From a virus: a stretch of DNA of 34,051 bases. The position numbers were made by a program, and so were the translations under genes. Under the pieces are notes generated by a model. That model worked only from the letters and a program-made list of their open reading frames with translations, had not been told where the DNA came from and did not search any database. Of this stretch, positions 2,061 to 13,399 are shown one piece after another. The stretch is taken from the IMG/VR virus record IMGVR_UViG_3300005613_000231, positions 1-34,051 of that record; one strand, written 5' to 3'. The number at the start of each line of letters is the position of its first letter. Positions within the stretch are counted from its first letter, which is position 1.

Positions 2061-2578
2061 TGCGCATCGCTGCCCTGTTGCTAACTGCGCTGGCATTCGT
2101 TGCCGCGCGAGACGCCCGCGCCCAGGGTACGGGCGAGTGGGTCCGGGCGGACGGGTCCGCGGTCTACATGCCCTGCCCGAACGCGCGGGAGTACGGCGCG
2201 CGCACGCGCATCCCCGCCAGTTGTCGCGTCGCCCACCCCGGCATCCTCTACACGGTCAAGCGCGACGCCCGCGCCGAGGCGGACGCGGCGGAGCTCGCCG
2301 CCGCCATCGTAGAGACTCGCGAGCTGCGGCTGACGGTCGAGAACGACCGGGCGGTCGTCGAGATGCTGCAGCGGGACGTCGCGGGCCTGGCCGCAGAGCA
2401 CGAGACCATCGCCGCCCAACTCGAGGCATGCGAGCGCCGGGCTGCGCAGCTCGACGCCGACAGGCGCGCGGCCGAGGCGCGGGAGCGGTCGTTCTCCTGG
2501 GGAGACGCCGCCATCGGTGCGGGCGCTGGCGCGATCGTCGCCGGGCTCGTCGTCGTGTTCCTCGTCGGTGCGCTGTGA
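2060..2578 (+). CDS. Secreted coiled-coil protein with C-terminal membrane helix, spanin-like
   Basis: A 172-residue protein. Residues 1-22 (MRIAALLLTALAFVAARDARAQ) form a Sec signal peptide ending in an A-x-A-like site. The middle (about 75-140) is a long Glu/Ala/Arg-rich coiled coil, and residues about 150-171 (IGAGAGAIVAGLVVVFLVGA) form a C-terminal membrane helix. A periplasmic coiled coil attached to a membrane is the architecture expected for a spanin that disrupts the outer membrane of a Gram-negative host, though the helix is C-terminal rather than N-terminal as in lambda Rz. Four Cys are visible. It starts one base inside the preceding stop (TGATG). Confidence 0.7.
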   Translation: MRIAALLLTALAFVAARDARAQGTGEWVRADGSAVYMPCPNAREYGARTRIPASCRVAHPGILYTVKRDARAEADAAELAAAIVETRELRLTVENDRAVVEMLQRDVAGLAAEHETIAAQLEACERRAAQLDADRRAAEARERSFSWGDAAIGAGAGAIVAGLVVVFLVGAL

Positions 2579-2895
2579 TGCGCGCGGCGTGGGTTGCGCT
2601 GGGATTCGCCATCGGCCTCGTTCCGAGTGCGGCTGCTGCGACCGGCGCGGCTGCCGACGAGTGGATCGCCGTGGTCATGTCGGCCGGCGCCATGCTGGCC
2701 GGCGGCGGCTCGCTGTGGAAGGTCGGCAGCGTCGCGCGTGAGTTCGGCGCGCTCGAGCAACGGGTCAAGACGATGGACGCCGAGGTCACCCGGCTGCGCG
2801 ACCGCGCGGTAATTGGAGACGTCTACGGGGCGGACATGGGCCGCGTGGAAACTCGGCTTCGCGCGCTCGAGCGCAAGACCGGGATTGAGTCGTGA
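2578..2895 (+). CDS. Small membrane/coiled-coil protein of lysis cassette
   Basis: A 105-residue protein with two hydrophobic segments at residues about 3-24 and about 29-48 (DEWIAVVMSAGAMLAGGGSL), followed by a charged helical region (LEQRVKTMDAEVTRLRDRA and METRLRALERKTG-like heptads). The first segment may be a signal peptide, leaving one membrane anchor. The layout resembles small phage proteins that anchor a coiled coil at the membrane. TGATG coupling to the upstream gene places it in the same transcript as the endolysin. Exact role unknown. Confidence 0.65.
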   Translation: MRAAWVALGFAIGLVPSAAAATGAAADEWIAVVMSAGAMLAGGGSLWKVGSVAREFGALEQRVKTMDAEVTRLRDRAVIGDVYGADMGRVETRLRALERKTGIES

Positions 2896-2906
2896 GGAGG
2901 TGTGCG

Positions 2907-3263
2907 GTGCGCTGTCTCATCGTTGACGACTACCCGCCAAAGCTGCATCTGTTGCGGCACATCATCCGGCAGTTGAGGCCCGACGCGGAATTGGTGACAG
3001 CCGAGTCGTTCACACAGGGTCGCGGGCTGATTATCAACGGCGGACCGTGGGACGTTGCGTTTTTCGACAACCGGCTGCACGACGGGTCGGGGATGGCGCT
3101 GCTGCGGCTCGCCCGAGAGCGACAGATCCCCGCTCTCGTGGTGTCCGCACACGACCCCGCGACCGTCGAGGAGATCCGCGAGGTGGTGCCGGTAAACGGC
3201 GTTGACCTCCTGCGCCAGCGCATCACGGGCGCGTTCTACGCGGCGGAGTTGTGTGATGGCTGA
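2907..3263 (+). CDS. Stand-alone CheY-like receiver domain protein
   Basis: A 118-residue protein, the size of one response-regulator receiver domain. It shows beta1 with the acidic pair (CLIVDDY, D7-D8), beta3 with the phosphoacceptor position (WDVAFFDNRLHDGSG, D54) and beta4 with the switch Ser (LVVSAHD, S80). The conserved Lys of beta5 is not in its usual context (NGVDLLRQR), so the switch may be altered. There is no output domain. The GTG at 2907 is preferred over the GTG at 2892 because AGGAGG at 2895-2900 lies six bases before it and the resulting protein starts at beta1. It sits among small lysis-region genes, which is unusual for a phage. Confidence 0.78.
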   Translation: MRCLIVDDYPPKLHLLRHIIRQLRPDAELVTAESFTQGRGLIINGGPWDVAFFDNRLHDGSGMALLRLARERQIPALVVSAHDPATVEEIREVVPVNGVDLLRQRITGAFYAAELCDG

Positions 3264-3582
3264 GACGTCGACCGCGTCGAAGGCGGCGCAGTGGGGCGCC
3301 ATCGCAGCAGCGATCGGGACCGGCATCGCGTCGCTGTGGCAGTCGATGGACGCCATGCCCGAGCGGCGAACGCGCCCGGCCATCGTGGAGACGCGCCGCG
3401 CCGTCGCAGACCACGCGGCGCGGATTGCCGTGCTCGAGGTGCGCATCGAGTATCTGGAGAGGGCGCGGTTCGGCGGCCAGGCAAAGCCGTCGCGGTCGGC
3501 GCTGGTCGACGTCAGGCGGCGAGCTCGGGCGGGGGCGCTGGCGGACATCCCGAGCGTGGACCAGTCCGGGCCGCCGGACTAG
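3256..3582 (+). CDS. Small protein with weak membrane segment and coiled coil
   Basis: A 108-residue protein. Residues about 11-30 (AAQWGAIAAAIGTGIASLWQ) form an amphipathic to weakly hydrophobic helix; residues about 44-75 form a heptad-like helix (VETRRAVADHAARIAVLEVR). The C-terminus is Arg-rich. The arrangement recalls XhlA-type membrane-associated phage proteins but no homology is claimed. It overlaps the receiver gene by eight bases and ends the rightward lysis operon; its TAG stop shares bases with the stop of the convergent gene in the palindrome CTAG. Confidence 0.6.
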   Translation: MAETSTASKAAQWGAIAAAIGTGIASLWQSMDAMPERRTRPAIVETRRAVADHAARIAVLEVRIEYLERARFGGQAKPSRSALVDVRRRARAGALADIPSVDQSGPPD

Positions 3583-9692: not shown

Positions 9693-10122
9693 GGCGACGG
9701 ACACGGCGGCCAACGCAACGGCGCGGGCCGAGGCGCGAGAGGACGACGCGGACACCGGCCTGGTGCTGACCACGCGGGCGGTCGCGGACCTGTGGTGCCT
9801 GCGGGCGGCGGCGCTCTCGCCGGGCGATGCTGGCGCGGTCGCGCGGGCGAAGCTGCTGAACCTGTGCGAGATGGTCGGGAACGTCTGCGCGCCCCACCGG
9901 GTCATGGGCAGCGGCGAGGCGTACGGCTGGGACTCCGCAGTGCGAGAGGCGCGGCGAGCGGAAGAGGCGGAGCGGCGGGCGAACGAGGCGGAGCGGCGGG
10001 CCGAGAGCGCCCGCGGGTTCGTCGACCTGATGCTGACGGTGGACCCGGAGCGCATCGACCGCGAGTTCATCGTGGCGTCGTTGCAGCACATGCGCGCGAC
10101 GTTCAAGCCGGGAGCAGAGTGA
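9685..10122 (+). CDS. Coiled-coil protein of replication operon, unknown
   Basis: A 145-residue protein with an Arg/Glu heptad region (EAERRANEAERRAESARGF) at about 95-115 flanked by helical domains (TRAVADLWCLRAAALSPGD, IVASLQHMRATFKPGAE). The ATG at 9685 is chosen because GGGAG ends nine bases before it; the ATG at 9676 is too close. It overlaps the helicase stop by eight bases. It might be a helicase accessory or loader, from context only. Confidence 0.65.
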   Translation: MDKATDTAANATARAEAREDDADTGLVLTTRAVADLWCLRAAALSPGDAGAVARAKLLNLCEMVGNVCAPHRVMGSGEAYGWDSAVREARRAEEAERRANEAERRAESARGFVDLMLTVDPERIDREFIVASLQHMRATFKPGAE

Positions 10123-10601
10123 TGGGGCGGCGATGGAGTCGGATCCCGGTCGCGCTGCTCGGCACGATGCCCGACGCGGAGATTGCGCGGCGTCACGGGT
10201 GCTCGCCAACAGCTGTGGGCACTCGGCGGCGGCGGCTTGGAATTCCGGCCGCCCCGACGAGACTGGACTCGATACCAGAGCGGGCGGGCGGGGTGCTCGG
10301 CGAGTACACCGACGCGACGGCCGCGGTCATCCTCGGGGTCAGCGAGCACACCGCGCGGCGATGGCGCATCCGGCTGGGGCGCGAGGCCGCCGGGTCGGAC
10401 CTGTGGGCCAGCATCCCCCGCGGGGCAGATGCTGCGGTCTTCGTCCGAGACCTGGCGCAGTCGCTCGACCGCGAGGTCCGCGACATCGAAGACACCTTGC
10501 TGAGGTGGCACCGCCGCGGCCGGGTGAGGCGGGAGAAGCGCCCCACGCCGACCGGCCGGCAGGGTCCACAGTCGACCTACGCCTACTGGCGGGACGAATG
10601 A
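10122..10601 (+). CDS. Double helix-turn-helix DNA-binding protein
   Basis: A 159-residue protein with two HTH-like units: LGTMPDAEIARRHGCSPTAV followed by GTRRRRLGI (about 14-43), and DATAAVILGVSEHTARRWRI (about 66-86). The C-terminal region (about 110-150) has a wing-like, basic sequence (EDTLLRWHRRGRVRREKRP). The first motif is common in small phage proteins that bind DNA. It may regulate late genes or assist replication; no target can be assigned. TGATG coupling upstream and ATGA overlap with rusA downstream. Confidence 0.7.
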   Translation: MGRRWSRIPVALLGTMPDAEIARRHGCSPTAVGTRRRRLGIPAAPTRLDSIPERAGGVLGEYTDATAAVILGVSEHTARRWRIRLGREAAGSDLWASIPRGADAAVFVRDLAQSLDREVRDIEDTLLRWHRRGRVRREKRPTPTGRQGPQSTYAYWRDE

Positions 10602-13075: not shown

Positions 13076-13399
13076 ATGAACCGATCCACCCTTGTGTGGT
13101 TGGCCGCCGCGGCGGCGTTCGTGGCGGGCGTCGCCCTCGGCGTCGGGTGGAGCTACCACAACGTCGAGGCGATGCGGGTGGAACTGCTGGTGGCAGAGGC
13201 CGAGGCCCGGCACCACGAGACACGGGTGGAGCAGGCGCTCGCAGCGTGCGCGGAGGTGGACGGTGTCCACGCCCGGCTCGATGCGCTGGAGGGCGAGGCG
13301 GGCGCGGCGACCAGGGCGCTGGTGGCGATGCGCGAGGACTGCGTCGTCCCCGGCATGTGGCACGAGCTCGGCGTGGTCCAGTTGCCGAGGCTGCGATGA
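13076..13399 (+). CDS. Membrane-anchored coiled-coil protein, Rz-like
   Basis: A 107-residue protein: an N-terminal membrane helix or signal anchor (LVWLAAAAAFVAGVALGVGW, residues 6-25), then an extended Glu/Ala/Arg coiled coil (about 33-80), ending CVVPGMWHELGVVQLPRLR. An N-in, C-out anchored coiled coil of about 100 residues is the shape of inner-membrane spanins such as lambda Rz. It is, however, located beside the terminase and not in the lysis cassette. GGGAGAG lies upstream of the ATG. Its stop overlaps the next gene, and in lambda the o-spanin gene is nested in Rz; here the overlapping gene is only a Cys-rich peptide without a lipobox. Confidence 0.62.
   Translation: MNRSTLVWLAAAAAFVAGVALGVGWSYHNVEAMRVELLVAEAEARHHETRVEQALAACAEVDGVHARLDALEGEAGAATRALVAMREDCVVPGMWHELGVVQLPRLR

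Follow-up and report, generated by a model that had tools for sequence, protein, structure and literature searches.

Stand-alone receiver domains, each encoded directly behind a small membrane-anchored coiled-coil protein, recur beside lysis genes in phages, and the receiver gene at positions 2907–3263 of the DNA analyzed here fits this arrangement. The recurrence of the receiver pair beside lysis genes is the new observation; the genes themselves have already been published, as CheY-like or as PhoB. In bacterial signalling, the receiver domain serves as the standard input module, and to our knowledge, the control of lysis timing is understood for only a few systems, namely holin/antiholin allele timing and lysis inhibition. 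The recurrence in unrelated phages suggests an undescribed way of tying lysis timing to a signal. The DNA analyzed, which we call the window, is the whole of an IMG/VR virus record (34,051 bases, GC content 0.706).

A stand-alone receiver gene without the conserved Lys

The receiver gene runs on the + strand from a GTG start codon at 2907 to a TGA stop codon at 3263 and encodes 118 amino acids (aa). An AGGAGG ribosome-binding site was read from the sequence at 2894–2899 (+ strand), 7 bases 5′ of the GTG. Codon usage in the receiver frame scored +0.27 bits/codon, indicating that it is coding, and the five other frames scored negative; the adjoining genes scored 0.37–0.42. The protein matched PF00072 (Response_reg) over residues 4–85 with an E-value of 1.7e−6 and 28.6 bits, just below the curated cut-off of 30.2, and its receiver homology over residues 1–87 was well beyond chance level. 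Homologues with E < 1e−5 were found in 23 bacterial genomes, and in all 23 the similarity ended by residue 79–89. The preliminary description of a single, stand-alone CheY-like domain at this site was thus borne out by the family match, the homologues, and the predicted fold described below. Because the top matches were ordinary bacterial receivers and not phage receivers, the window receiver was probably captured independently of the other phage receivers, and a shared function is not implied. Searches with back-translated patterns found no close homologues in viral contigs or genomes, and none were found in the plasmids searched. The lone genome-contig match to the receiver pattern (L008) proved to be a piece of an unrelated methyltransferase-like protein.

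The two acidic residues after β1 and the phospho-acceptor Asp after β3 are kept (D7, D8, and D54), and the Ser/Thr position at the end of β4 is filled by S80; each of these residues lies exactly where it had been reported from the first reading of the sequence. The same reading had noted the lack of the conserved Lys context, and the alignment agrees: the β5 Lys column is occupied by Q104 or R105, depending on a single gap, whereas all 23 aligned actinobacterial homologues have Lys. The cis Pro that follows this Lys is also absent, with no Pro after Q104/R105. A frameshift restoring the β5–α5 region was considered and rejected, as the overlapping open frame at 3202–3582 reads nothing receiver-like. 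The Lys couples phosphorylation of a receiver to its conformational change, and a copy lacking it is expected to be slow to phosphorylate or to have no proper output. Since both the Lys and the β5–α5 unit are missing, a weakened or absent phosphorylation switch is favoured for the window copy.

The fold of the window receiver was predicted with AlphaFold2 from a two-sequence input, consisting of the window protein and one natural homologue from a metagenomic contig (L013). This model (mean pLDDT 73.8, pTM 0.70) contained four β–α units in receiver order; the fifth was absent, and the pLDDT was <50 from residue 106 onward. A single-sequence run was poor (pLDDT 51) and was set aside. With the two-sequence model as the query, Foldseek retrieved PDB receivers with E-values of 5e−5 to 1e−3, as well as viral receivers, and VIA-align matched many PDB receivers with Z scores of 11–12 over residues 1–107. 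Structure prediction had been proposed earlier as a check on the receiver assignment, and the α/β receiver fold was present in the model. On the model's evidence, the fold is that of a receiver whose last β–α unit has been lost or has diverged too far to be modelled.

The receiver gene lies in a putative lysis operon

Among the phage genes of the window are those for a Mu-type portal, a ClpP-type protease with scaffold, RecT, YqaJ, DnaB, and a tape-measure protein. A tail gene with a Laminin_G_3 lectin domain (1–900) is severed where the record starts on the left, and the record is therefore a genome fragment. Among 50,697 phage records, there was no near match to the first 20 kb of the window and no protein match to its terminase, and a capsid-profile search of 396 genomes from a single phylum found no prophage relatives.

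The receiver gene belongs to a packed operon on the + strand. Behind the lectin-domain tail gene follow a 76-aa holin candidate with one predicted membrane helix (908–1138), an endolysin-like protein of 216 aa (1135–1785), a 92-aa protein with one predicted membrane helix (1782–2060), and a 172-aa protein with a signal-like N-terminus, a coiled coil, and a C-terminal membrane helix, which is spanin-like in layout only (2060–2578). The endolysin-like protein has weak M15 peptidase and peptidoglycan-binding matches (E 0.0024–0.035, below the curated cut-offs). The next gene (2578–2895) encodes a small membrane protein of 105 aa, the proposed partner of the receiver, which has a signal-like N-terminus, a second hydrophobic stretch at about residues 30–46, and a coiled-coil-like charged tail with heptads at L59, V63, M66, V70, L73, and A77. 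The receiver gene follows after an 11-base gap and overlaps by 8 bases the ATG end of the next gene (3256–3582), which encodes a 108-aa protein with a weak N-terminal hydrophobic stretch and a coiled coil. The placement of the receiver in a lysis region, as originally suggested, is supported by the weak matches of the endolysin-like protein and by the gene order, and is strengthened by the recurrence elsewhere. The accompanying description of the gene as embedded between small membrane protein genes holds on the upstream side, where the 2578–2895 product has two hydrophobic stretches; the downstream product is only weakly hydrophobic.

The scanned genes of the window phage yielded neither a histidine kinase nor a phosphotransfer domain, and no second receiver turned up when the complete record was searched for the family. 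A phosphorelay based on histidine within the window pair was ruled out, as the 2578–2895 product contains no His. Elsewhere in the window, a further small protein with an N-terminal membrane helix and a coiled coil (13076–13399) adjoins the terminase gene but has no neighbouring receiver, and a 160-aa protein (10119–10601), perhaps a late regulator, gave weak matches of the helix-turn-helix and sigma-70 region 4 types that fell below the cut-offs.

The receiver gene is absent from a close relative

One relative of the window phage, IMGVR_UViG_3300001419_000051, shares 93%–95% DNA identity with the window over most of the relative's length. In this relative, the stretch corresponding to 2532–3282 of the window, which holds the 2578–2895 gene and the receiver gene, is replaced: 751 bases in the window correspond to approximately 415 bases there, which encode another small coiled-coil gene instead. 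The flanking genes are kept, the upstream one (2060–2578) at 93% and the downstream one (3256–3582) at 89% DNA identity, and no receiver was found anywhere in this record, a fragment of 24,723 bases. Absence of the gene from close relatives with intact neighbours had been named beforehand as an outcome that would count against the receiver's proposed role, and this outcome did occur. Because a 93%–95% identical relative lacks the gene and keeps its neighbours intact, the receiver gene is accessory: the lineage can do without it, and a core lysis function is excluded. This comparison of presence and absence involves a single relative, as a second one does not extend across the receiver region.

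The replacement gene (L004:700-972) encodes a coiled coil followed by a C-terminal hydrophobic stretch, an XhlA-like layout that resembles that of the partner protein in Alteromonas phage PB15; an XhlA identity was rejected, as the layout is similar but has no Pfam support. In the relative IMGVR_UViG_3300028840_001438, a gene near the contig end (L006:18-1133) contains an SGGKDS motif like that of PAPS reductases and is possibly a sulphur-related auxiliary gene.

Receivers paired with membrane coiled-coil proteins recur in other phages

Stand-alone receivers were found in one metagenomic contig (L013; IMG/VR contig 3300044768_000029) and in eight Alteromonas phages with sequenced genomes, belonging to at least four kinds: PT11-V22 (a myovirus), PT15-A5 (Schitoviridae), PB15, PT11-V19, R9Y1 and R9Y2 (siphoviruses by name; R9Y3 matches alike), and R8W and H4/4 (Autographiviridae). 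Almost all of the isolates infect a single host genus. One of the receiver surveys was queried with a generic receiver consensus composed from background knowledge of the domain. Receiver-bearing "phage" records that lacked annotation (Listeria, Staphylococcus, Enterococcus, Acinetobacter, and faecal sets) were left out because they looked mostly like host DNA, and Stenotrophomonas phage Bhz63 and Escherichia phage 569R9 were rejected as they have full-length regulators outside the lysis genes and not stand-alone receivers.

The L013 receiver is 30% identical to that of the window, likewise falls below the Pfam cut-off, and stands behind genes for a 95-aa one-helix coiled-coil protein and a three-helix holin-like protein; outside the receiver, no relation of this contig to the window phage was detected, and the terminases differ. 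The gene directly 5′ of each such receiver encodes 93–125 aa that include a single hydrophobic helix, the rest being charged and patterned in heptads; the PB15 partner differs in carrying its helix C-terminally. The partner and receiver genes overlap by a few bases, or sit a few bases apart, in nearly all annotated cases. The lysis neighbours are lysozyme in R9Y1 and R9Y2, a class II holin in R8W and H4/4, an M15-type carboxypeptidase in PB15, and a papain-like amidase (PT11-V22) or endolysin (PT15-A5) together with spanin-like and two-helix proteins. PT11-V19 is the exception; its pair lies among tail genes, with no lysis gene recognised alongside. The window fits this group, with the receiver directly behind the hydrophobic, heptad-bearing 2578–2895 product and in the same operon as the weakly matched endolysin-like gene at 1135–1785.

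Some of the pairs are shared between phages. PT11-V22 and PT15-A5 have both proteins in common. The R9Y1 partner matched only proteins of the R9Y phages and of R8W and H4/4, in every one of which a receiver adjoins; the part matching R8W and H4/4 is the cytoplasmic tail (residues 65–120), and the receivers of these two groups are 47% identical. This degree of receiver identity, together with the co-occurring partner tail, indicates that the pair was kept together across unrelated phages. The window partner had no detectable homology to the Alteromonas partners. A strict one-helix coiled-coil filter, which was defined after the data were seen and is a guide and not a test, picked the partner in six of nine cases and passed 2 of 66 PT11-V22 genes and 0 of 47 window genes; the three partners that failed it were those of the window, L013, and PB15.

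Most of the Alteromonas phage receivers are complete, Lys included. In the PT11-V19 receiver (L050:2998-3450), both the phospho-acceptor Asp (LLFIPAS) and the Lys have been lost and the one-helix partner has been kept, making it a natural pseudo-receiver. Because degeneration is therefore not unique to the window, some phage receivers may act without phosphorylation.

A possible role in lysis control and its alternatives

The best reading of the window pair, which we advance tentatively as having a little less than an even chance of being correct, is that a cytosolic receiver adaptor and the membrane-anchored coiled-coil partner (2578–2895) form an optional lysis-control module. The single-domain receiver would work in the cytosol with the membrane-anchored protein encoded directly 5′ of it, the two forming a module inserted into the late lysis operon. 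Receivers are known to dock on helical bundles; here, the receiver would dock on the cytoplasmic coiled coil of the partner, and docking would alter the timing or readiness of triggering by a holin-type protein. Where relatives retain a complete active site, phosphorylation by a host kinase or acetyl phosphate could govern the docking. The window copy, because it has lost the Lys and the β5–α5 unit, would probably be a slow or phosphorylation-independent adaptor. For the window pair, we infer the protein contact, the effect on lysis, and any phosphorylation. Receiver homology and fold, the tight operon with its good ribosome site, and the recurrence beside lysis genes all speak for the pair reading; against it stand the close relative that manages without the gene, a window partner that has no detectable homology to the Alteromonas partners and did not pass the strict filter, the bacterial and not phage-borne top matches of the window receiver, the PT11-V19 pair with no lysis gene recognised alongside, and isolates that nearly all infect a single host genus. 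Since neither the receiver nor the partner of the window is a close relative of the Alteromonas proteins, a function common to both would rest on analogy from the shared arrangement.

A broader proposal, which we consider possible but distinctly doubtful, is that stand-alone receivers were acquired again and again by unrelated tailed phages and combined there with a membrane-anchored coiled-coil protein, so that a cytosolic sensor feeds into the timing of lysis. This would be a new class of lysis regulator, of which the window would hold a Lys-less version. If true, some phages would gate lysis by reading a cell signal, or by using a frozen receiver as a docking part, and the PhoB and CheY auxiliary metabolic gene labels in culturable Alteromonas phages would need renaming. 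The recurrence of receivers within lysis cassettes, together with a small membrane protein dedicated to them, makes this a testable proposal, and the culturable Alteromonas phages permit a direct test.

The main rival, which we regard as unlikely yet serious, is that the receiver is a decoy for host signalling that alters host physiology late in infection, either by competition for the host's histidine kinases or as a sink for phosphoryl groups, its position in the lysis operon merely giving late expression. This corresponds to the published "class II auxiliary metabolic gene" reading. In its favour, D7, D8, D54, and S80 are kept in the window receiver, most of the Alteromonas copies are complete with Lys, and the published annotations, CheY-like and class II auxiliary metabolic gene (PMC7289586, PMC10579305) or PhoB (PMC8228385), agree with this view. 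However, a decoy leaves unexplained the small membrane coiled-coil gene constantly found directly 5′, as well as the retention of the gene in PT11-V19 despite the loss of the phospho-acceptor Asp and Lys; moreover, the α5 region lost from the window copy is part of the usual kinase-docking surface.

It is less probable still that the gene is a decaying passenger, that is, a bacterial receiver gene that recombination brought into the lysis operon at its variable end, with no selected function, and now losing its fifth β–α unit and Lys. Its accessory nature and the losses already incurred are consistent with decay; the good ribosome site, the coding signal, and the four active-site residues kept speak against it, and the independent receivers in the same setting of other phages argue for use. 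We disfavour, as very improbable, the view that the protein is a cyclic-phosphate-processing phosphoesterase (cRec), the best-described phage-borne divergent receiver (PMC7824862, PMC9503650): although a cRec protein was present among the weaker BFVD matches, the best family is the classical Response_reg, and ligase, Nudix, Macro, and sirtuin genes were not found adjoining the receiver. Finally, high-GC DNA yields many long open frames, but a chance frame or bacterial contamination of the assembly is refuted by the agreement of coding signal, ribosome site, and receiver homology and by the co-occurrence of the genes on both flanks in an independent phage contig, that of the close relative.

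Comparison with known receivers

The bacterial single-domain response regulators CheY, Spo0F, and DivK share with the window protein the receiver fold, the D-D-D-S/T residues, and the lack of an output domain; in contrast, the window copy is phage-borne and without the Lys or a clear β5–α5, and no cognate kinase was found in the scanned genes. The cRec proteins (PF20274) of jumbo phages, which are linked to RNA repair and ADP-ribose processing (PMC7824862, PMC9503650), likewise have a phage-borne divergent receiver fold, but the window has no NAD or RNA-repair context, and neither the window nor the L013 receiver matched the PF20274 (cREC_REC) profile at E-values up to 10. The L013 receiver, divergent and just under the Pfam cut-off like that of the window, differs from it in keeping the Lys (VSKS) and in belonging to a different phage with a different terminase.

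A literature search found no paper tying the Alteromonas phage receivers to lysis, and the "receiver domain" in a paper on phage N4 lysis is a coincidence of naming, denoting a pinholin region. V22 gp30 and A5 gp11 were published as CheY-like and classed as a class II auxiliary metabolic gene within a host-recognition module, their neighbours being left unassigned (PMC7289586, PMC10579305). Like the window gene, they encode stand-alone receivers and come immediately after a gene for a small membrane coiled-coil protein; they lie in the stretch from the tail fibre genes to the lysis genes. Unlike the window protein, their products, of 149 and 147 aa, have Lys-Pro as well as every active-site residue. 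R8W gp48 and H4/4 gp44, published as PhoB (PMC8228385), are receivers without an effector domain, as in the window, encoded immediately after the genes for a one-helix protein and for a class II holin, but with 153 aa and a complete active site. The R8W gene (L048:3001-3462) leaves no room for a DNA-binding domain in its 153-aa receiver, and the name "PhoB" looks misleading.
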